In this document: positions 823 to 50,528 of the stretch, piece after piece
Position numbering within the stretch: the stretch's first letter is position 1
How the letters are laid out: every line of letters begins with the position of its first letter
Assembly: GCA_002633085.1 (NCBI GenBank)
Contig: NSIV01000013.1
Coordinates: forward strand, 1 to 64,000
From: Curvibacter sp. PD_MW3
GTDB lineage: Bacteria; Pseudomonadota; Gammaproteobacteria; Burkholderiales; Burkholderiaceae_C
DNA length: 64,000 nt
Direction of reading: 5' to 3'
Notes under the pieces: model-generated
The model's database searches: none
What the model was told of the DNA's origin: nothing
Seen by the model: only the letters and a program-made list of their open reading frames with translations
Made by a program: the position numbers and the translations under genes

Positions 823-1197
823 CTAGGGGCTTTCCAGTAGCAGGGCGGCGACCACATGCCGGCCTTCGCCTGCCAGGATGTTGTAGGTGCGGCAGGCGGC
901 TGCCGTGTCCATGGTTTCGATGCCGATGCGCCGCTCGACCAGGGCCTGGAGCCAAGCCGGCTGGGGAAAACGCAGGCGATCGCCACTGCCGAACAGCACC
1001 AGCTCGGGGCCGCTGTCGACCAGCCGGGCAAAGTGCGCAGCACTCAGCTCGCTGTAACGCGCACATTCCCAGTCAAACCGCTGACCACGCGAACCGACCA
1101 CCAGGCTGGTGGTGATTTTTTCTCCATCCAAGCCAATCCAGCCCGGGCCGTAGCCGCTGATGGTCTGAACGTCGAATTTGTCGGGCTGGAGTTTCAT
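823..1197 (-). CDS. Mth938-like (DUF498/Xcc1710) domain protein
   Basis: A 124-residue single-domain protein of the MTH938/NDUFAF3-like fold. Recognisable features are the N-terminal ISGYGPGWIGLDGE, the strand SLVVGS and the central ELVLFGSGDRLRFP, followed by GIETMDTAAACRTYNILAGEGR. The bacterial proteins have no settled biochemical role; the mitochondrial relative NDUFAF3 helps assemble respiratory complex I. It is divergent from the plus-strand aminotransferase at 1261, with only about 60 bp between them, so the two probably share a promoter region. Confidence 0.85.
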   Translation of the reverse strand: MKLQPDKFDVQTISGYGPGWIGLDGEKITTSLVVGSRGQRFDWECARYSELSAAHFARLVDSGPELVLFGSGDRLRFPQPAWLQALVERRIGIETMDTAAACRTYNILAGEGRHVVAALLLESP

Positions 1198-1260
1198 AGG
1201 AAGAAAGGAACTGTGGTCAAATTATAGGTTTCGCCCCGCTTTCAGCATCCCGGAGGGACT

Positions 1261-2490
1261 TTGAAAACCATACGTAAATCTGCCAAGCTGTCCAACGTGC
1301 TCTACGACATTCGCGGCCCCATCATGGATGCGGCCAAGCAAATGGAGGAAGAGGGGCAGAAGATCATCAAGCTCAATATTGGGAACTTGGCGGCTTTCGG
1401 TTTTGACGCGCCGGAGGAAATCCAGCAGGACATGATCCGCAACCTGCCCAATTCGGCCGGTTATTCCGACAGCAAGGGCATCTTCGGCGCCCGCAAGGCG
1501 GTGATGCACTATACCCAGCAGCAGGGTATGAAGGGCGTGACGCTGGACGACATCTACCTGGGCAATGGCGCCAGCGATCTGATCGTCATGGCCACCAATG
1601 CGCTGCTCGACGAGGGCGACGAACTGCTGCTGCCGGCCCCCGACTATCCGCTGTGGACGGCGGCCACCAGCCTCTCGGGGGGCTCGCCGGTGCACTACCT
1701 GTGCGACGAAGAGAACGGCTGGATGCCGGACCTGAACGACATCCGCAGCAAGATCACCCCGCGCACCAAGGGCATCGTGGTCATCAACCCGAACAACCCG
1801 ACCGGCGCCCTGTATTCCGAAGAACTGCTCAAGGGCATTGTCGACATCGCGCGTGAACATGGCCTGGTGATCCTGGCTGACGAGGTGTACGACAAGGTGC
1901 TCTACGACGGCGAGCACCATGTTGCGCTGGGCAGTCTCTCGGAAGACGTGCTGACGCTGACCTTCAATTCCCTCAGCAAGTCCTACCGTTCCTGCGGTTA
2001 CCGGGCCGGCTGGATGGTGATCTCGGGCGACAAACGGGGCGCACAGGACTACATCGAAGGCCTGAACATGCTGGCCAACATGCGACTGTGTGCCAATGTC
2101 CCGGGACAATGGGCGGTGCAGACGGCGCTGGGTGGCTACCAGAGCATCAACGACCTGGTGAAGGAAGGCGGACGGCTGCGCCGTCAGCGCGACCTGGCGT
2201 ACGAGCTCATCACGGCCATTCCGGGGGTGACGTGTGTCAAACCCAAGGCGTCGCTGTACATGTTTCCCCGGCTGGACCCCAAGGTCTACCCGATCGAGGA
2301 CGACCGCCAGTTCTTCCTTGAACTGTTGCGCGAGACCCGCGTGATGCTGGTGCAGGGCAGCGGCTTCAACTGGCCCAAGCCGGATCACTTCCGCATCGTG
2401 TTCCTGCCGTATGAAGACGATTTGCGCGAGGCCATTGGCCGCGTGGCCAAATTCCTTGAGAACTACCGAAAGCGCCACGCGCGCACCTAA
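1261..2490 (+). CDS. alaA: Alanine/valine-type PLP aminotransferase (AlaA/AlaT-like)
   Basis: Fold-type I PLP aminotransferase of 409 residues, probably making alanine from pyruvate and glutamate. Visible motifs are NPNNPTGALYSEE, LADEVYDKVLYDGEHH and the PLP-lysine motif SLSKSYRSCGYRAGW; RIVFLPYEDDL near the C-terminus carries the substrate-carboxylate arginine region. The start is TTG at 1261, chosen because CGGAGGG lies a few bases upstream and the family N-terminus (KSAKLSNVLYDIRGP) follows at once. It stands directly before hom, an arrangement consistent with co-transcription of amino-acid biosynthesis genes. Confidence 0.9.
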   Translation: MKTIRKSAKLSNVLYDIRGPIMDAAKQMEEEGQKIIKLNIGNLAAFGFDAPEEIQQDMIRNLPNSAGYSDSKGIFGARKAVMHYTQQQGMKGVTLDDIYLGNGASDLIVMATNALLDEGDELLLPAPDYPLWTAATSLSGGSPVHYLCDEENGWMPDLNDIRSKITPRTKGIVVINPNNPTGALYSEELLKGIVDIAREHGLVILADEVYDKVLYDGEHHVALGSLSEDVLTLTFNSLSKSYRSCGYRAGWMVISGDKRGAQDYIEGLNMLANMRLCANVPGQWAVQTALGGYQSINDLVKEGGRLRRQRDLAYELITAIPGVTCVKPKASLYMFPRLDPKVYPIEDDRQFFLELLRETRVMLVQGSGFNWPKPDHFRIVFLPYEDDLREAIGRVAKFLENYRKRHART

Positions 2491-40960: not shown

Positions 40961-42061
40961 ATGAGCAAGAAATTCAACATCCTCATCCTGGGCGCGTCTT
41001 ATGGCTCCCTGCTTGCCAGCAAGCTGCTAATGGCGGGCCACTCGGTCAGCCTGGTCTGTCGCCGGGAGACGGCAGAGTTGATCAACCGCGAAGGCACCCG
41101 CGTGCGCGTGCCGCTCAAAGGCCGGGAAGGCTTGGTCGAGATTGATTCGCGCCAGCTGCCGGGCAAGCTGGACGCGGTTTCCCCGTCGCAAGCCAAACCC
41201 GAGCAGTACGACCTGGTCTGCCTGGCCATGCAGGAGCCCCAGTACAGCGCCCCGGGCATGCGCGAGTTAATGCAGGCGGTCGCCTTGGCCAAAGTACCCT
41301 GCATGTCCATCATGAACATGCCGCCGCTGCCCTACCTGGCTCGCATTCCTGGCCTGGATGCCAGTGGCCTGCGTGCCTGCTTTCACGACGCCACGGTCTG
41401 GGACCATTTTGAGCCCGGCCTGATGACCCTGTGCAGCCCCGACCCGCAAGCCTTCCGTCCGCCGGAAGAGAAGCCGAATGTGCTGCAGGTCGGTCTGCCG
41501 ACGAACTTCAAGGCGGCCCGTTTCGACAATCCGGCGCATACCGCCATGCTCGAACAGATGGAGGCTGACATTGCCGCGGCCCGTTTGAATGTCAACGGCG
41601 AGGTGCTGGATATTCCGGTCAAGCTCAAGGTGCACGACTCCATCTTCGTGCCGCTGGCCAAGTGGGCCATGCTGCTGACCGGCAACTACCGCTGCGTGCA
41701 GGCCGACGGCATGCGTCCGATCCGTGACGCCGTGCATGGCGACATCGAGAAGTCGCGCGAGGTCTACGCCTGGGTGGTTGAGCTGTGCGTTCAGTTGGGC
41801 GCTTCGCGTGACGACATGGTGCCGTTCGAGAAGTACGCTGCTGCCGGGCAAGGGCTGATGAAGCCGTCGTCGGCAGCCCGGGCCCTGGCGGCCGGAGCCA
41901 CCGACATCGAGCGCATCGACCTGCTGGTCAAGCTGGTGGCAGAACAGAAGGGGCTGAACAACGAGTCGGTCAGCGAGACGGTCAAGGTGGTCAACAGTTG
42001 GCTTGATCGCAACCGGAAGGCAGCCGCCGAAAAAAAAGCGGCTGAGGCGGTCGCCGCCTGA
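40961..42061 (+). CDS. Ketopantoate reductase (ApbA/PanE)-like oxidoreductase
   Basis: 366 aa with a Rossmann N-terminus (FNILILGASYGSLLASKLLMAGHSVSLVCRRETAELINREGTRVRV) of ApbA type and an all-helical C-terminus that ends in a charged, Ala/Lys-rich tail (KAAAEKKAAEAVAA). It is longer than canonical PanE (~300 aa) and lacks a typical MxxK-S catalytic signature that I can place with confidence, so pantoate synthesis is not assured. It stands alone between aceA and the thrS leader. Confidence 0.8.
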   Translation: MSKKFNILILGASYGSLLASKLLMAGHSVSLVCRRETAELINREGTRVRVPLKGREGLVEIDSRQLPGKLDAVSPSQAKPEQYDLVCLAMQEPQYSAPGMRELMQAVALAKVPCMSIMNMPPLPYLARIPGLDASGLRACFHDATVWDHFEPGLMTLCSPDPQAFRPPEEKPNVLQVGLPTNFKAARFDNPAHTAMLEQMEADIAAARLNVNGEVLDIPVKLKVHDSIFVPLAKWAMLLTGNYRCVQADGMRPIRDAVHGDIEKSREVYAWVVELCVQLGASRDDMVPFEKYAAAGQGLMKPSSAARALAAGATDIERIDLLVKLVAEQKGLNNESVSETVKVVNSWLDRNRKAAAEKKAAEAVAA

Positions 42062-42101
42062 GGCGGCGGGCGCCTCGGGCCTTCACTTCCTGCCGGTCAG
42101 C

Positions 42102-42133
42102 AAAAACGCCGGGGTCGAATCCCCGGCGTTTTT
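42102..42133. terminator. Intrinsic terminator
   Basis: Perfect AAAAACGCCGGGG / CCCCGGCGTTTTT stem with a 6-nt loop after the ketopantoate reductase-like gene. It isolates that gene from the thrS transcription unit. Confidence 0.92.
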
Positions 42134-42159
42134 GTTTCTTCCCCCCCCCGGGTTAGAAT
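42132..42159 (+). promoter_or_regulatory. Possible promoter of the thrS leader
   Basis: TTGTTT (42132-42137), 16 bp, TAGAAT (42154-42159). It overlaps the end of the upstream terminator and would give a leader RNA of about 180 nt before thrS. Confidence 0.45.
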
Positions 42160-42211
42160 GTCCCCATTGGACATATCGTCCGTCGACAAGAGCGAGAAAG
42201 GCATCCCGGTT

Positions 42212-42262
42212 ATGACACCGCGAACTACCACCACCCGGTTGATACGCCTCAGGGGTTGCTAG
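42212..42262 (+). CDS. Threonine-rich leader peptide upstream of thrS
   Basis: 16 codons: MTPRTTTTRLIRLRGC then TAG, with GAAAGG about 10 bases before the ATG. Five of 16 residues are threonine, four of them consecutive (ACT ACC ACC ACC at 42224-42235). It precedes a potential antiterminator and a terminator, and lies just upstream of threonyl-tRNA synthetase. This is the layout of a ribosome-mediated attenuation leader that senses charged tRNA-Thr. Too short to be a functional protein otherwise. Confidence 0.75.
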   Translation: MTPRTTTTRLIRLRGC

Positions 42263-42285
42263 TCCGCGCGCCCCGGGCGCCAAGT

Positions 42286-42302
42286 GCTATCAAATTCAAA
42301 GC
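42286..42302 (+). repeat. Dispersed GCTATCAA repeat, partial copy 6
   Basis: GCTATCAAATTCAAAGC, between the thrS leader peptide and its terminator. Only the core of the repeat is recognisable. Confidence 0.5.
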
Positions 42303-42330
42303 AAGGCGCGGTCTCTACCGCGCCTTTTTT
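42303..42330 (+). terminator. Attenuator terminator before thrS
   Basis: AAGGCGCGGT-CTCT-ACCGCGCCTT followed by TTTT, ending 18 nt before the thrS ATG. CGCGCC at 42267-42272, just past the leader peptide stop, could pair with GGCGCG (42305-42310) and prevent the stem from forming. A ribosome stalled at the Thr codons would leave 42267-42272 free; one at the stop codon would cover it. Confidence 0.8.
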
Positions 42331-42348
42331 CTTTTCTGCGAGTGAAAC

Positions 42349-44292
42349 ATGGTTCAGATTACGCTTCCCGACGGTTCCAAACGTGATTTCCCCGGCCCGG
42401 TGACAGTGGCCGAGGTGGCTGCCTCCATCGGCGCCGGCCTGGCCAAGGCCGCGCTGGCCGGCAAGATCCCCGCCGCAGACGGTTCCGGCTTCAAGGTGGT
42501 GGACACCAGCCACCAGATCACCGCCGACAGCCCGCTGTCCATCGTCACGGCCAAGGATGCCGACGGCCTGGAGGTCATTCGCCATTCCACCGCCCACTTG
42601 CTGGCCTATGCCGTCAAGGAGCTGTTCCCTGACGCCCAGGTCACCATCGGCCCGGTGATCGACAACGGCTTCTATTACGACTTCTCCTACAAGCGCCCGT
42701 TCACGCCCGAAGACCTGACCGCCATCGAGAAGAAGATGGCCGAGCTGGCCGCCAAGGACGAGCCGGTAGTGCGCCGCGTGCTGCCGCGCGACGAGGCCGT
42801 GGCTTATTTCAAGAGCCTGGGCGAGCACTACAAGGCCGAGATCATTGCCAGTATTCCGGCTGATCAGGAAGTGAGCCTGTACCGCGAAGGCAAGTTCGAA
42901 GACCTGTGCCGCGGCCCGCACGTGCCCAGCACCGGCAAGCTCAAGCACTTCAAGTTGATGAAGGTGGCCGGCGCCTACTGGCGCGGCGACCACCGCAACG
43001 AGATGCTGCAGCGGGTCTACGGCACCGCCTGGGCCAGCAAGGAAGAGCTGCAGCAGTACCTGACCATGCTGGAGGAGGCCGAGAAGCGCGACCACCGCAA
43101 GCTGGGTCGTGAACTCGACCTGTTCCACATCGACGACCACGCCCCTGGCCTGGTGTTCTGGCACCCCAAGGGCTGGACGGTGTGGCAGGGCGTGGAGCAG
43201 TACATGCGCCAGGTCTACCGCGACAACGGTTACCAGGAGGTCAAGGGCCCGCAGGTGATCGACAAGACGCTGTGGGAGAAGACTGGCCACTGGGACAAGT
43301 ACCGCGAAAACATGTTCACCACCGAGAGCGAGAAGCGCGAATACGCTTTGAAGCCGATGAACTGCCCGGGCCACATCCTGATCTTCAAGCAGGGCATCAA
43401 GAGCTACCGTGACCTGCCGCTGCGCTACGGCGAATTCGGCCAGTGCCACCGCAACGAACCCTCGGGCGGTCTGCACGGCATCATGCGCGTGCGCGGCTTC
43501 ACGCAGGACGACGGCCACATCTTCTGTACCGAAGACCAGATCCTGGAGGAGTGCGTCAACTTCACGGCGCTGCTGCAGAAGACCTACAAGGACTTCGGCT
43601 TCACCAACATCATCTACAAGATCGCGACCCGGCCGGAAAAACGCATCGGCTCGGACGAGAGCTGGGACAAGGCCGAAGCCGCCCTGATGGCCAGCCTGAA
43701 GGCCGCCAACTGCGAATTCGAGATCGCCCCGGGCGATGGCGCCTTCTACGGTCCGAAGATCGAGTACACGCTGAAAGACGCCATCGGCCGCCACTGGCAG
43801 TGCGGCACCATCCAGGTCGACTTTTCCATGCCCGAACGGCTGGATGCCGAGTACGTGGGGGAGGACGGCGGCCGCCATCGCCCCGTCATGCTGCACCGGG
43901 CCATCGTCGGCAGCCTGGAGCGTTTCATCGGGATTTTGATCGAGGAACACGCCGGCGCGTTGCCCACTTGGCTGGCGCCGGTGCAGGTCGCGGTGCTCAA
44001 TATCACCGACTCGCAGGCCGATTACTGTCGTGAAATTGCGGAAAAACTGCGGAAATCTCTGCCGAATCAAGAACTTAGAGTCATCACAGACCTGCGCAAC
44101 GAGAAAATTACGTATAAAATACGGGAGCATTCAATGCAGAAGCTGCCTTACATCCTGGTCGCAGGCGACAAGGAAGTGGCCGCTGGTGCCGTTGCAGTGC
44201 GCGCCCGAGGGAATCGTGACCTCGGTGTGATGTCCCTCGACGCATTCGTGCAAACCATCGCGGACGACATCGCTCACAAGTCTGTCGGCTAG
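42349..44292 (+). CDS. thrS: Threonyl-tRNA synthetase
   Basis: Class II synthetase, 647 aa, charging tRNA-Thr. Domains: N-terminal TGS ([27 protein letters not shown]), editing domain with [26 protein letters not shown] and the C-H metal site [19 protein letters not shown], catalytic core ([30 protein letters not shown], the Zn ligand Cys, [14 protein letters not shown], and [21 protein letters not shown] motif 3), and anticodon-binding domain. First gene of the thrS-infC-rpmI-rplT-pheST cluster; expression is probably attenuated (see the leader). Confidence 0.98.
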
Positions 44293-44378
44293 GCTCTTTT
44301 GGGGCCTATTGGCAGTTTGCCCGCGTGTACAGGACGGTTGACGCCACGTTAGTGGCAACAAATTTGAAGGATTGAACC

Positions 44379-44972
44379 ATCGCTACTGAATTTCGTGATC
44401 GCCGCCAGCGCGAAGAACGCAAACACCGTCTGAATCGGGAAATCATGGCGCCGGAGGTACGTGTATCCGGCCCCGACAATGAACCCCTCGGTGTGTTGAG
44501 TCTGGCAGAGGCCCTGCGATTGGCAGGCGATATGGATGTGGACCTGATCGAGATCGTGGCCACCGCCAATCCGCCCGTCTGCCGCCTGATGGACTACGGC
44601 AAGTTCAAGTTCCAGGAGCAGAAGAAGGCCGCCGAAGCGAAATCCAAGCAGAAGGTCATCGAGGTCAAGGAAATCAAGTTCCGACCCGGTACCGATGATG
44701 GTGACTACAACATCAAGTTGCGCAACATCAAGCGCTTCTTGGATGAGGGTGACAAGTGCAAGATTACCTTGCGCTTCCGTGGTCGAGAGATCACGCACCA
44801 GGAAATTGGCATGGCGCTGCTCAACCGCATGCGCGATGACTTGGCGGATCTAATCGTGGTCGAGCAGTTCCCCAAGCTGGAAGGCCGGCAGATGATCATG
44901 ATGATCGCGCCGGGCAAGAAAAAGGCTGGTGGCGCTGCGCCCAAGCCGGCAGCAGAAGCTGCTGCGTCGTAA
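44379..44972 (+). CDS. infC: Translation initiation factor IF-3
   Basis: 197 aa. IF-3 prevents 30S-50S association and checks initiator tRNA and start codon. Starts with the rare codon ATC at 44379 (ATC GCT ACT GAA TTT CGT...), encoding (M)[27 protein letters not shown], the family N-terminus, with GAAGGA spaced 7 bases before it. The first ATG in frame is only at 44445 and would remove 22 conserved residues. As with the AUU start of E. coli infC, the poor start codon is expected to allow IF-3 to repress its own translation. Confidence 0.93.
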
Positions 44973-45000
44973 AGATTCGTTTTCTGTCGGTTTGGTCACC

Positions 45001-45034
45001 GGCGGGAATCGCCGGGAAAGCGAGAGCTTTCCCG
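45001..45034 (+). promoter_or_regulatory. Stem-loops in the rpmI leader
   Basis: GGCG-GGAAT-CGCC (45001-45013) abuts a second stem CGGGAAAGC-GAGA-GCTTTCCCG (45013-45034) with a GNRA tetraloop. They lie in the 192-nt infC-rpmI spacer, which in other bacteria holds the L20-binding autoregulatory RNA; binding here is inference. Confidence 0.45.
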
Positions 45035-45164
45035 AAACGTGGTGAATCCCAGGATTTGCCACATCGGTGGCGGGTCTTGTACTCGCCACACAAGTGGCTC
45101 GGGGCCAACAAGTCCGGAATGGGTTTCCGGCGCCTCACGAGCACAATGTAAAAGGAGCATTCCA

Positions 45165-45368
45165 ATGCCCAAGATGAAGACCAAGAGCGCGGCGAAGAAA
45201 CGCTTCCGCGTTCGTCCCGGTGGTACCGTCAAGCGCGGTCAAGCCTTCAAGCGTCACATTCTGACCAAGAAGACCACCAAAAATAAACGCCATTTGCGCG
45301 GTGCAGTGACGGTGCATGAGACCAATATGGGTCACATGGCACAGATGCTGCCTGGCATGGGTATTTAA
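45165..45368 (+). CDS. rpmI: 50S ribosomal protein L35
   Basis: 67 aa ([25 protein letters not shown] ... [14 protein letters not shown]), typical length and composition of L35. AAAGGAGC is well placed before the ATG at 45165; the open frame is longer upstream but nothing there is ribosomal. It is followed 25 bp later by rplT. Confidence 0.97.
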
Positions 45369-45393
45369 TTAACGACGAACAAGGAGTAATCAA

Positions 45394-45753
45394 ATGCCTC
45401 GCGTCAAACGTGGTGTAACGGCTCGCGCCCGCCATAAGAAAGTTCTCGCCCTCGCCAAGGGCTTCCGCGGTCGCCGCGGTAATGTCTTCCGCATCGCCAA
45501 AGAAGCGGTGATGAAGGCTGGGCAATATGCCTACCGTGACCGCCGTACCAAGAAGCGTGTCTTCCGTCAGCTGTGGATTGCCCGTATCAACGCGGCAGCC
45601 CGTCAGTGCGGCATGACCTACAGCCAGTTCGCCAACGGCCTGAAGAAGGCCCAGATCGAGATCGACCGCAAAGTGCTGGCCGATATCGCTGTGCACGACA
45701 TGGCTGCCTTCGCTGGCATCGTGGAGCAAGTCAAGGCCAAGCTGGCCGCTTGA
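45394..45753 (+). CDS. rplT: 50S ribosomal protein L20
   Basis: 119 aa ([55 protein letters not shown] ... [42 protein letters not shown]). Early-assembly 23S rRNA-binding protein. In E. coli L20 represses rpmI-rplT translation by binding its own leader RNA; an analogous leader may be present here (45001-45034). Confidence 0.98.
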
Positions 45754-45769
45754 TCTTCAAGCCAGGTTT

Positions 45770-45816
45770 GCTATCAGTTAGATAGCATGCCACGCACAAG
45801 AAACAAGGGCTAGAGC
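45770..45816 (+). repeat. Dispersed GCTATCAA repeat, copy 7
   Basis: GCTATC-AGTTA-GATAGC, then ACGCACAAGAAACAAGGGCTAGAGC. It merges into the following terminator stem, so its GGGCTAGAGC end contributes to termination. Confidence 0.75.
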
Positions 45817-45838
45817 TTTAAAAGAGCTTTAGCCCTTT
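45805..45838 (+). terminator. Terminator between rplT and pheS
   Basis: AAGGGCTA / TAGCCCTT arms with inner AGCTTT / AAAGCT-like pairing, followed by TTTGTC. It partly separates pheST-ihfA from the upstream ribosomal genes; read-through or a separate pheS promoter would be needed. Confidence 0.65.
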
Positions 45839-45852
45839 GTCATTCTGAAAGC

Positions 45853-45898
45853 GATCAGGAGATGCGGGTGGGCCGGTGCCTACCCTGATGTCCTGATC
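45853..45898 (+). promoter_or_regulatory. Stem-loop in the pheS leader
   Basis: GATCAGGA (45853-45860) pairs with TCCTGATC (45891-45898); inner GGGT/ACCC pairs extend the stem. It ends 23 bp before the pheS ATG. No Phe-rich leader peptide is present, so classical attenuation is not supported. Confidence 0.4.
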
Positions 45899-45921
45899 TC
45901 TTTGCATAAGCGGATGTGAAC

Positions 45922-46974
45922 ATGAACGAGTTGGATGCCATCGTCGACAGCGCGAAAACCTCCTTTGTCGAGGCCACCACCCCGGTCGATCTGGAAAACG
46001 CCAAGGCGCGCTTTTTGGGCAAGGCCGGCCGCATCACCGAACTGATGAAGGGCATGGCCGCCCTGAGCGTGGAAGAAAAGAAATCGCGTGGTGCCGCCAT
46101 CAACGTGGCCAAGCAAGCGATTGAGGCCGCGCTGAACGAGCGTCGTCAGGCCCTGGCCGAAGCCGAATTGCAAGCCCAGCTGCAGGCCGAGGCGCTGGAC
46201 GTCACGCTGCCTGGCCGCGCTCGCGGCAACGGCGGCCTGCACCCGGTGTCGCTCACCATGGAGCGCATCGAGGCCATCTTCGGCTCCATGGGCTTTGAAG
46301 TGGCCCAGGGTCCCGAGATCGAGGCCGACTGGTTCAACTTCACCGCGCTCAACACGCCCGAAGACCATCCCGCCCGCTCCATGCACGACACCTTCTACGT
46401 CGAAGGCGGCAGCGAAAAGGCGCCGAACCTGCTGCGCACGCACACTAGCCCGGTGCAGGTGCGCCACGCGCTGCAGCATGTCAAGCAGCACCGCGCGCTG
46501 ATCGAGGCCGGTCTGCCCATGCCTGAGATCCGGGTCATCTGCCCGGGCCGTACCTACCGCGTGGACAGCGATGCCACCCATTCGCCCATGTTCCACCAGT
46601 GCGAAGGCCTGTGGATCGGTGAGAACGTGAGTTTCAAGGACCTCAAGTTCGTCTTCACCGATTTGTGCCGGACCTTTTTCGAGCGTGACGACCTGGTGCT
46701 GCGCTTCCGCCCCAGCTTCTTTCCCTTCACCGAGCCCAGCGCCGAGATCGACATCCAGTTTCAGAGCGGGCCGCTGGCCGGCCGCTGGCTGGAAGTGGCT
46801 GGCTCCGGTCAGGTGCACCCGAACGTGGTGCGCAACATGGGGCTCGACCCCGAGAAGCACATCGGCTTTGCGTTTGGCATGGGGCTGGACCGCTTCACCA
46901 TGCTGCGCTACGGCGTCAACGACCTGCGCCTGTTCTTTGATGGCGATATTCGTTTTCTCTCCCAATTCCGTTGA
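45922..46974 (+). CDS. pheS: Phenylalanyl-tRNA synthetase alpha subunit
   Basis: 350 aa catalytic subunit of the (alpha-beta)2 enzyme. N-terminal coiled coil ([45 protein letters not shown]) and class II core: [40 protein letters not shown] (motif 2 region) and [17 protein letters not shown] (motif 3). I use the ATG at 45922; a GTG six bases earlier is in frame and would add two residues. Confidence 0.97.
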
Positions 46975-47006
46975 ACGCCCGCGGACCACACACGAAGATT
47001 TAGACC

Positions 47007-49439
47007 ATGCAATTCCCGGAATCCTGGCTGCGCGAATTCTGCAACCCGACACTCACCACCCAGCAACTGGCCGACACCCTGACCATGGCTGGCCTCGAGG
47101 TGGAGGAGCTGCGCCCGGTGGCGCCGCCATTCACCAAGATCGTTGTCGGCGAAATCAAGGAAGCTGTACAGCACCCGAATGCCGACCGCCTGCGCGTGTG
47201 CCAGGTGGATGTGGGGCAGGGCAGTTTGCTCAACATCGTCTGCGGCGCGCCCAATGCGCGCGTGGGCATCAAGGTGCCGTGTGCTCTCGTGGGCGCGGAG
47301 CTCCCGCCGGGTGACGATGGCAAGCCTTTCAGCATCAAGCTGGGGAAGCTGCGCGGCGTGGAAAGCCAGGGCATGCTGTGCTCAGCGCGCGAACTCAAAC
47401 TGTCCGAAGACCACGGCGGCCTGCTGGAGCTGGCCGCTGATGCGCCCATCGGCCAGGACATCCGCATCCATCTGAATCTGGACGACACGCTCTTCACGCT
47501 GAAACTGACGCCGAACCTGGCGCACTGCCTCAGTGTCTACGGTGTGGCCCGTGAAGTGGCCGCGCTGACCGGTGCGCCGCTCAAGACACCGAGCTTCCCG
47601 CCCGTGGCCGCCAAGATCAACGACAAGCAAGCCGTGAAGGTCAGTGCTCCTGATCTGTGTGGCCGCTTCTCCGGTCGCATTGTGCGCAACGTGAACACCC
47701 AAGCCGCCACCCCGCCATGGATGGTGGACCGGTTGGCCCGCTGCGGCCAGCGTAGCGTGACGGCCTTGGTGGACATCTCCAACTACGTGATGTTCGAATA
47801 CGGTCGCCCGTCGCACATCTTCGACCTGGACAAGATCCACGGCGCACTGGATGTGCGCTGGGGCAAGCCAGGCGAGCAGCTCAAGCTGCTCAACGGCAAT
47901 ACCGTCACCGTGGACGGTGAAGTGGGTGTGATTGCCGATGACCAACAAGTCGAGTCCCTGGCCGGCATCATGGGCGGTGACGCCACTGCCGTGTCCGATG
48001 ACACCAAGAACGTCTACGTGGAAGCCGCCTTCTGGTGGCCCAAGGCGATCGCCGGCCGTTCACGCCGCTACAACTTTGCGACCGACGCCGGGCATCGCTT
48101 CGAGCGCGGTGTGGATCCGCAGCTGACGGTGGAGCACATCGAGCGCATCACCCAGCTCATCATCGATATCTGCGGCACGCCCGACACCGTGTGCGGGCCG
48201 ATCGACGACCATCAGGTGAAGATGCCGCAGGCGCAGCCGGTGACGCTGCGGGTGGCGCGCGCCGCCAAGATCATCGGCATGCCGTTGACCCAGGCGCAGT
48301 GTGCTGATGCATTGGACCGTCTCGGTTTGCCGCTGACACAGGCTGACGGCACCATCACCGTCACCCCGCCGCTGTACCGCTTCGATCTGCAGATCGAGGA
48401 GGATCTCATCGAGGAAGTGGCGCGGATGGTGGGCTACGACAAGCTGCCGCACATGCCGCCGCAGGCTCCTGTGGTGGCCAAGAGCCGTCCCGAGGCGCAA
48501 CGCAGCCAGTTTGCCGTGCGGCGCTCGCTGGCCGCGCAGGGTTACCAGGAGACCATCAACTACAGCTTTGTCGAAGAGCGCTGGGAACATGAGCTGGCGG
48601 GCAACCCGAATCCGATCAAGTTGCTGAACCCGATCGCCAGCCAGATGAACGTCATGCGCTCTTCGCTGCTCGGCTCGCTGCTGCAGGTGCTGAAGTTCAA
48701 CCTGGACCGCAAGGCGTCACGTGTTCGCGTGTTCGAGTTGGGCCGGGTGTTCCTGCGTGATCCCTCGGTGAAGAACAGCGACACCACGGTTGAAGGCTTT
48801 GAGCAGCCGATGCGCGTGGCCGGTATGGCCTGTGGTGCGGTTGACAGCCTGCAGTGGGCTGGCAAAGAGCGCAGCGTGGATTTCTACGACGTCAAGGGCG
48901 ATGTGGAAGCGCTGCTGTCGCCGCTCAAAGCCACCTTCGAGCCGGCGACGCATCCGGCCATGCACCCGGGCCGCTGTGCCAAGGTGCTGCTGGGTGGTCA
49001 GACCATCGGTTTTGTCGGCGAGTTGCACCCGCGCTGGCGCCAGGGCTATGACCTGGCGGTGGTGCCGGTGATGTTCGAGCTGGAACTTGATGCGGTCCTG
49101 CAGCGCGGCGTGGCCGCCTTCAGCAGCGTGGCCAAGCACCAGCCGGTGGAGCGTGACATCGCGGTCATCGTGGCCGAATCGACCAGCCACGCAGCCCTGA
49201 TGCAAGCTATCTGGGCCGCGCCGACGCAGGGCCTGTTGCGGGATGCGATACTGTTCGACGTCTACCGGGCCAAGCCGGGTGCGGCATCGGCCGGCTTGGG
49301 CGAGGGCGAGAAGAGCCTGGCGGTGCGTCTCACGCTCAATGGCGAAGAGGCCACGCTGACCGAGGAGCAAATCGAGTCGGCCGTGTTGGCTGTGCTGGGA
49401 CAATTGACGAGCCAGTTGGGCGCGCGTTTGCGCGCTTGA
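47007..49439 (+). CDS. pheT: Phenylalanyl-tRNA synthetase beta subunit
   Basis: 810 aa, full length. Domains in order: tRNA-binding OB fold ([27 protein letters not shown], around residues 45-150), B3/B4 editing domain ([11 protein letters not shown] ... [22 protein letters not shown]), B5 DNA-binding-like domain, a non-catalytic class II core and a C-terminal ferredoxin-like anticodon-binding domain ([18 protein letters not shown]). Pairs with PheS, 32 bp upstream. Confidence 0.98.
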
Positions 49440-49482: not shown

Positions 49483-49818
49483 ATGGAAATCACGGTTGAA
49501 AGTCTGGAAACACCGGCGCTGACCAAGGCGCAGCTGGCCGAACTGTTGTTCGAGCAGATCGGGCTGAACAAGCGCGAATCGAAGGACATGATCGATGCCT
49601 TTTTCGACCTGGTGGCTGACAGCCTGGTGGACGGCAATGACGTCAAGATTTCCGGCTTCGGCAACTTCCAGATCCGGACCAAGGCGCCGCGCCCGGGGCG
49701 CAATCCACGCACCGGCGAAGCGATTCCGATCGAGGCCCGCCGCGTGGTGACTTTTCACGCCAGCCACAAGCTCAAGGAACAAATCCAGGACGAAGGGCGT
49801 ACGCCCCCAACCGCCTGA
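49483..49818 (+). CDS. ihfA: Integration host factor subunit alpha
   Basis: 111 aa HU/IHF-fold DNA-bending protein ([90 protein letters not shown]). The [11 protein letters not shown] beta arm with its intercalating proline region is typical. IHF-alpha heterodimerises with IHF-beta, which is not in this window. Its place downstream of pheT is the classic gamma/betaproteobacterial arrangement. Confidence 0.97.
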
Positions 49819-50409: not shown

Positions 50410-50486
50410 CGGTGTGTGGCGCAGCCTGGTAGCGCACTTGCATGGGGTGCAAGGGGTCGAAGGTTCGAATCCTTTCACACCGACCA
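50410..50486 (+). tRNA. tRNA-Pro (GGG)
   Basis: 77-nt cloverleaf: acceptor CGGTGTG / CACACCG, D arm with AGCCTGGTAGCGC, anticodon stem CTTGC/GCAAG around ATGGGGT giving anticodon GGG, T arm GGTTCGAATCC, and an encoded CCA end. Followed by a strong terminator. Confidence 0.97.
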
Positions 50487-50493
50487 TCAATCA

Positions 50494-50528
50494 AAAAGGG
50501 TTGGCAGGAAATTCCTGCCAACCCTTTT
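50494..50528. terminator. Terminator after tRNA-Pro
   Basis: 17-bp arms beginning AAAAGGGTTGG and ending CCAACCCTTTT, almost without a spacer, then GTCTTTT. Functions on both strands, so it also ends the small minus-strand gene at 50572. Confidence 0.92.

Follow-up and report, generated by a model that had tools for sequence, protein, structure and literature searches.

Organisation of the thrS locus

The DNA analysed, referred to below as the window, is a stretch of 64,000 nucleotides from Curvibacter sp. PD_MW3 (contig NSIV01000013.1, assembly GCA_002633085.1, positions 1–64,000, forward strand); the leader features and the genes from thrS to the IHF-alpha-like gene described here lie on the plus strand. 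The thrS gene (42349–44292) is the first gene behind a leader, and the first 400 residues of its product, ThrRS, find matches in 290 of 299 sampled genomes of the family at an E value of 1e-60 or better. The open reading frames after thrS run in the same orientation and are taken to be infC, encoding IF3 (44379–44972), rplT (45394–45753) with rpmI just before it, pheS (45916–46974), pheT (47007–49439) and an IHF-alpha-like gene (49483–49818). The probable start codon of infC is AUC at 44379, 22 codons upstream of the ATG given in the list of open reading frames (window 44379–44445); non-canonical start codons are a known trait of IF3. Downstream of the pheT–IHF region, a tRNA-Pro (GGG) gene is followed by a terminator-like hairpin of 16 pairs (50410–50528).

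Upstream of thrS lies a short ORF, MTPRTTTTRLIRLRGC (42212–42262, stop codon TAG), which reads ATG ACA CCG CGA ACT ACC ACC ACC CGG TTG ATA CGC CTC AGG GGT TGC TAG. Codons 5–8, ACT ACC ACC ACC (Thr5–Thr8, 42224–42235), are the putative control codons, and a fifth Thr codon is present at codon 2. The ORF is preceded by GAGCGAGAAAGG (42190–42201), conserved in an alignment of 28 relatives and containing the Shine-Dalgarno-like GAAAGG (42196–42201). Between the ORF and thrS the sequence predicts an intrinsic terminator (42303–42330), made up of a perfect 10-pair stem with a loop of four (42303–42326) and a T tract. The original prediction had placed a leader ORF with four consecutive Thr codons, the motif CGCGCC, a terminator and the thrS ATG in this region, and the coordinates of all of these are confirmed in the sequence.

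The leader contains segments that can be paired in alternative ways. Segment 0 (GGCATCCCGG, 42200–42209) has segment 2b (CCGGGCGCC, 42273–42281) as its partner, in a stem that extends into the ribosome-binding region of the leader. Segment 1 (CCGCGAACTAC, 42218–42228) lies within the ORF and is overlapped by the Thr codons at 42224–42235. Segment 2 (CTAGTCCGCGCGCC, 42259–42272), which includes CGCGCC (42267–42272) and within which the leader stop codon falls, has two possible partners, segment 1 and segment 3, the latter being the terminator's 5′ arm (42303–42312); in the window, segment 2b is also able to pair with segment 3. The sequence GAGCGAGAAAGGC, at 42190–42201 of the window and in relatives, is kept in families f1 and f8 to a greater extent than the apparent Shine-Dalgarno sequence or the 0:2b stem would seem to require.

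In the window, the calculated energy of the terminator hairpin is −17.3 kcal/mol, and that of the antiterminator duplex formed by 42260–42270 with 42305–42315 is −15.1 kcal/mol. The minimum-energy fold of 42198–42284 consists of the 0:2b and 1:2 stems, nested. When the 5′ part is masked, the minimum-energy fold predicted for the window before the terminator is complete has segment 3 bound to part of 2b and not to segment 2; either of the two would act as an antiterminator. The whole window leader is not unusually stable (z −1.56), nor is the leader minus its terminator (z +0.86), and terminator-like sites in 41500–48500 are no commoner than in shuffled sequences (5 against a mean of 5.9), the one in the thrS leader being the longest listed among them. 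The case for the leader rests on conservation rather than on folding energy.

Conservation of the leader peptide

Regions upstream of thrS were assembled from 109 loci at first and from 185 in total (167 + 18). A script yielded 84 leaders in the first set, after removal of one false ORF, and 143 in 167 regions once the loci of the order-wide search had been added; for these 143 it required either that codon 5 be Thr or that there be a core resembling Arg-Thr. A further 18 thrS regions, 17 of which gave a leader, brought the number to 160. Some genomes were fetched twice, and the 160 leaders comprise 155 distinct sequences, with 146 left at 95% similarity. The rows left out were L001 and L114, which are the window again, L047, where the ORF is false and the real leader has decayed, and L067 and L094, in which the match begins inside thrS. 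Alignment A1 consists of 28 of 57 dereplicated leaders, chosen by hand, and alignment A2 of 53 of 60 leaders, with L053, L080, L085, L093, L098, L103 and L109 left out for long spacers or odd N-termini.

The 160 leader ORFs upstream of thrS come from the window's own family and from at least 16 others in the order, at least 17 in all; the ORF, its Thr codons and its stems, which the original prediction had proposed to look for among relatives, recur beyond the family. The shared build is a GAAAGG-like ribosome-binding region, ATG ACA CCG CGA ACT AC., a second segment, which in relatives frequently overlaps the stop of the ORF, the terminator and thrS. The core CCGCGAAC is invariant in the alignment of 28 relatives, and 3 of 8 pairs of the terminator stem change on both sides in A1. 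In the window's family and in several others the peptide starts MTPRT and continues with further Thr or with different residues. In distant families the Thr run comes behind other first residues (MFRTTTTTGK, MAFRTTTTG, MAFRTTTTGISTLA, MFKRTTTTRTSR, MQLNRTTTTS), and the N-terminal length of the leader varies across relatives. The core is Arg-Thr in 148 of the 160 leaders, with further Thr codons; in 12 the Arg codon is replaced by one for Leu or Pro (MTPLTT, MRPPTT) and Thr is retained. Because the distant families differ in their first residues, the common core of the predicted peptides is Arg-Thr plus a Thr run and not the exact MTPRTTTT. The run of four Thr codons originally predicted is present in the window, but it is not a constant of the family of leaders: the length of the run varies, and some families have Thr2 and Thr5 only (MTPRTCFFLR, MTPRTWKFTEIRR).

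As the leader script had required Thr at codon 5, the search was repeated on 13 bases ending before the changes at codon 4 begin, so that codon 5 was not used. Codon 5 is Thr in 124 of the 125 leaders from this search, and the sole exception, L038, a hit with three mismatches, is taken as spurious. Among 63 dereplicated leaders, Thr is found at codon 6 in 37, where all four third bases are used, and at codon 7, which is located outside the core of stem 1:2, in 21. Thr is the enriched residue at codons 5–7. The short ORF upstream of thrS therefore carries codons for Thr, the amino acid matching the gene that it precedes, as is expected of an attenuator.

Covariation of the alternative stems

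In the swap test, mean duplex energies are compared for segments paired with the partner from their own species and with that from other species. The input for the main test was 157 of the 160 leaders, dereplicated to 45. For stem 1:2, the protector, in which CCGCGAACTAC in the ORF pairs with the segment at the ORF stop, the mean energies were −10.73 matched and −9.70 swapped; for stem 2:3, the antiterminator, in which segment 2 pairs with the 5′ arm of the terminator, they were −14.09 and −12.46. In each case 0 of 10,000 swaps were as low, while two controls that used sequence lying 5′ of the ribosome-binding region came to 923 and 8,287 of 10,000; the effects of relatedness and base composition are only partly removed in these figures. 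Other subsets gave, for stems 1:2 and 2:3 respectively, 0 and 0 of 5,000 swaps (n=84), 21 and 1 of 5,000 (n=39) and 24 and 0 of 10,000 (n=50). The n=50 controls gave 1,351 of 10,000 for 1:3 and 9,891 for the upstream stretch with segment 3, and the upstream-to-middle control was weakly positive (457 of 10,000).

This last result was read as a further stem leaking into the control, and it led to the identification of stem 0:2b, in which the ribosome-binding and start region of the leader pairs with a stretch just 5′ of the terminator, nesting outside stem 1:2. In the window GGCatCCCGG (42200–42209) pairs with CCGGGcGCC (42273–42281); CAAAGCCATG with a CATGGCTTTG-like sequence in L220, and GGGAGTAAACCC with GGGTTACTCC in L226, are examples from relatives. 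In the main test (n=45) stem 0:2b gave −16.71 matched and −14.20 swapped, with 0 of 10,000 swaps as low, and the same count was obtained when 12 divergent leaders (−15.17 against −11.58) and 41 other leaders (−16.85 against −14.75) were treated apart. Mean z values against shuffles of the same sequences are −1.04 for 0:2b, −0.69 for 1:2 and −1.05 for 2:3, compared with −0.16, −0.38 and −0.25 for controls. Among trp leaders, occlusion of the ribosome-binding site of the leader peptide itself has been described.

Single leaders show concerted changes of the same kind. Where codon 4 is CCG in place of CGA (MRPPTT, for example L142), segment 2 is seen by eye to change too, and in L103, where the terminator has been replaced, segment 2 fits the replacement arm. 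In the family alignment of 28 members, covariation in stem 2:3 did not go beyond that of shuffled data (as good in 162 of 500 by cells paired and in 278 of 500 by covariation score); its columns hardly vary, so that pair counts within the family are uninformative. In stem 1:2 of the family alignment, 5 of 7 pairs depart by unpaired cells only.

Overall, we conclude that the predicted protector, antiterminator and 0:2b stems co-vary between species. This covariation points to an antiterminator that excludes the terminator and a protector that excludes the antiterminator, the two relationships by which an attenuator is recognised. It agrees, as does the −15.1 kcal/mol duplex, with the pairing originally proposed between the CGCGCC region and the 5′ arm of the terminator. 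The check for covariation in alternative stems that was proposed with it comes out positive for stems 1:2 and 2:3, with 0 of 10,000 swaps as low for each; the additional stem over the ribosome-binding region had been missed.

Promoter and upstream context

A probable −10 box of the leader promoter, TAGAAT (42154–42159), is apparent in the window from the sequence and from relatives, with no good −35 element; a sigma-70 scan of the window region, which also requires a −35 element, found no promoter. In 83 of 143 leaders a TANAAT box is present 28–110 nt 5′ of the ATG, its first base most commonly 48–51 nt before this codon. Given these boxes and the TAGAAT of the window, a transcription start downstream of 42330, an outcome that the original prediction had named as incompatible with it, appears unlikely.

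A tRNA-Val (GAC) gene lies directly 5′ of the thrS leader in 15 of 20 loci scanned (L143, L157, L220, L221, L224, L226, L228–L230 and L232–L237). Because this gene directly precedes the leader, the two may be co-transcribed in those 15 loci. In the window, which was also scanned, there is no tRNA-Val gene directly before the thrS leader.

Distribution, losses and false positives

A model built from 53 leaders, R2, matches 233 of 299 genomes of the family at an E value of 1e-10 or better, with one match each; in the order, at 1e-5, the count is 163 of 399 genomes. Adjacency to thrS was checked in the fetched loci: thrS adjoins the match in 60 of 70 loci from the first order search (L113–L182), one of these being the window itself, and in 18 of 20 further loci from the order. 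The 10 of the 70 loci that are without thrS all score 29.6 bits or less with model R1. One of these ten, L178, was rejected as a leader. The match (about 1187–1319, minus strand) covers the end of an ORF resembling a TonB-type receptor, its last codons reading ACCGCGAACTAC and the ORF ending ...RGRYVRGTANYKF, followed by a terminator with no thrS, and it scores 42.5 bits (E 1.4e-10) with R2. Chance matches to R2 therefore reach about 42 bits, and the weakest family and order matches are unsafe. In a class-wide search of 369 sampled genomes, 32.7 bits was the highest score reached outside the order, and seven such loci that were inspected (L213–L219) are all without thrS.

The script found no leader in 24 of 167 thrS upstream regions. 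Three of these (L017, L046 and L168) do have an Arg-Thr ORF; a fourth, L047, has a decayed leader with ATA at the position of the start codon, its segments and terminator remaining; and 20 are without a leader, 13 of which retain a terminator-like hairpin, as judged by eye. In L021, L048, L050, L068, L073 and L077, a terminator-like hairpin stands before thrS without a leader ORF; another gene ends close upstream, where there is also a TANAAT-like box. G298, which belongs to the same genus as the window, is without an R2 match at an E value of 1e-10 though thrS is present (E 1.1e-198), possibly reflecting loss or replacement of the leader within the genus. The identical leader at two contig ends of another genome (L222 and L223, G674) is probably an assembly overlap.

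A model for the control of thrS

Judged at the level of sequence, the thrS leader has the features that define a ribosome-mediated attenuator. Conservation and covariation in relatives support the threonine attenuation originally predicted, and we consider it highly probable that this leader is a transcription attenuator sensing the charging of threonyl-tRNA and controlling thrS, possibly with the genes behind it. We infer leader translation, stalling, termination, the direction of the response and the downstream reach of the control.

In the mechanism that we propose, transcription probably starts some 35–45 nt 5′ of the leader ORF. With ample threonyl-tRNA, the ribosome would reach the UAG in segment 2 and mask that segment, allowing the terminator (3:4) to form. 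With no ribosome on the leader, 0:2b and 1:2 would form one long nested hairpin in which segment 2 is occupied, and the terminator would again form. When threonyl-tRNA is short, the ribosome would stall on the start-proximal Thr codons (2 and 5–8), where it should sit over segment 0, in the ribosome-binding region, and segment 1, the 5′ strands of both stems. Segment 2, and in the window also 2b, would then be free to pair with segment 3, no terminator would form and thrS would be transcribed.

The off state would in this way have two latches, the protector stem and 0:2b, both opened by a single ribosome stalled near the start. We put this reading forward tentatively, jointly with control of the whole operon, and rate the pair at slightly under an even chance. 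If transcription does run on, one sensor of threonyl-tRNA would set the levels of ThrRS, IF3, L35, L20, PheRS and IHF and, as part of the same tentative reading, threonine charging and translation capacity would be coupled across much of the beta-proteobacteria.

Other explanations of the leader were weighed against these data. ThrRS might itself be the regulator, binding hairpins of the leader in the manner of the E. coli enzyme, with the small ORF incidental; E. coli ThrRS is named among self-regulating RNA-binding proteins in PMC2965389. What is conserved here, however, is an ORF that opens with a start codon, has an N-terminal part of variable length and contains in-frame Thr codons free at the third base, together with an intrinsic terminator whose loops differ in sequence, unlike an anticodon-like loop, and we regard regulation by the enzyme as very unlikely. 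Similarly improbable is a leader that responds to overall translation, or to Arg together with Thr, so that any early stall opens thrS–infC–rplT–pheST. The Arg codon before the Thr codons in 148 of 160 leaders and the succession of infC, rpmI and rplT after thrS would suit such a role, but Arg gives way to Leu or Pro in 12 of 160 leaders with Thr kept, and it is for Thr that codons 5–7 are enriched. Finally, the terminator might end a short independent sRNA or an upstream transcript, with the ORF as decoration, a reading favoured by the 13 of 20 leaderless regions that keep a terminator-like hairpin (for example L021, L048, L068, L073 and L077). Against this, the ORF, the Thr codons and the segment 2 pairing are retained jointly with the terminator upstream of thrS across families, and we give this explanation hardly any weight.

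Attenuation by threonyl-tRNA charging would account for the control of ThrRS in many beta-proteobacteria without the E. coli operator or a T-box, and it would give annotators an ORF and an RNA family where Rfam had no match. With protector, antiterminator and ribosome-binding-site latch changing together among them, the 155 distinct natural variants would make a good system for studying how attenuators evolve with their logic kept. Whether threonine controls an operon to which IF3, L20 and PheRS also belong can now be put to a direct test.

Comparison with known systems

Searches of the window leader against Rfam, at the gathering threshold and at E values up to 1 (five matches), gave nothing relevant; neither the Thr leader RF00506 nor the T-box model was matched. 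In the literature covered, which did not extend to one comparative study of 2010 with a fitting title, we found no description of a leader peptide for thrS in beta-proteobacteria.

In E. coli, ThrRS binds its own mRNA and blocks the translation of thrS. The target gene and the physiological aim are common to that operator and to the leader described here, which consists instead of an ORF and a terminator. The thrS T-box of Firmicutes senses the charging of tRNA-Thr at a terminator and needs no leader ORF. Both it and the present leader would sense tRNA-Thr charging at a terminator; here there is a leader ORF and no match to the T-box model.

Closer parallels are provided by attenuators of other synthetase genes, pheST in gamma-proteobacteria and trpS and leuS in Streptomyces, as described in PMC1262725, and by the hisS leader of Bacillus, an instance of leader-peptide control of a synthetase gene in PMC2965389. 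In these accounts, as here, the residue in the leader peptide matches the synthetase; the thrS leader differs in amino acid, gene and lineage, the comparison being one of descriptions and not of sequences.

The leader attenuators of amino acid operons, trp, his, leu and thr, are represented in Rfam by RF00513, RF00514, RF00512 and RF00506, according to PMC3766115. Like them, the thrS leader has a short ORF in which the relevant codon is abundant, an antiterminator and a terminator as alternative structures, and the same logic. It differs from them in controlling a synthetase rather than a biosynthetic operon and in being without a match to an Rfam family, in the position of its control codons at 2 and 5–8, right after the start, and in the possession of an extra stem over the ribosome-binding region.
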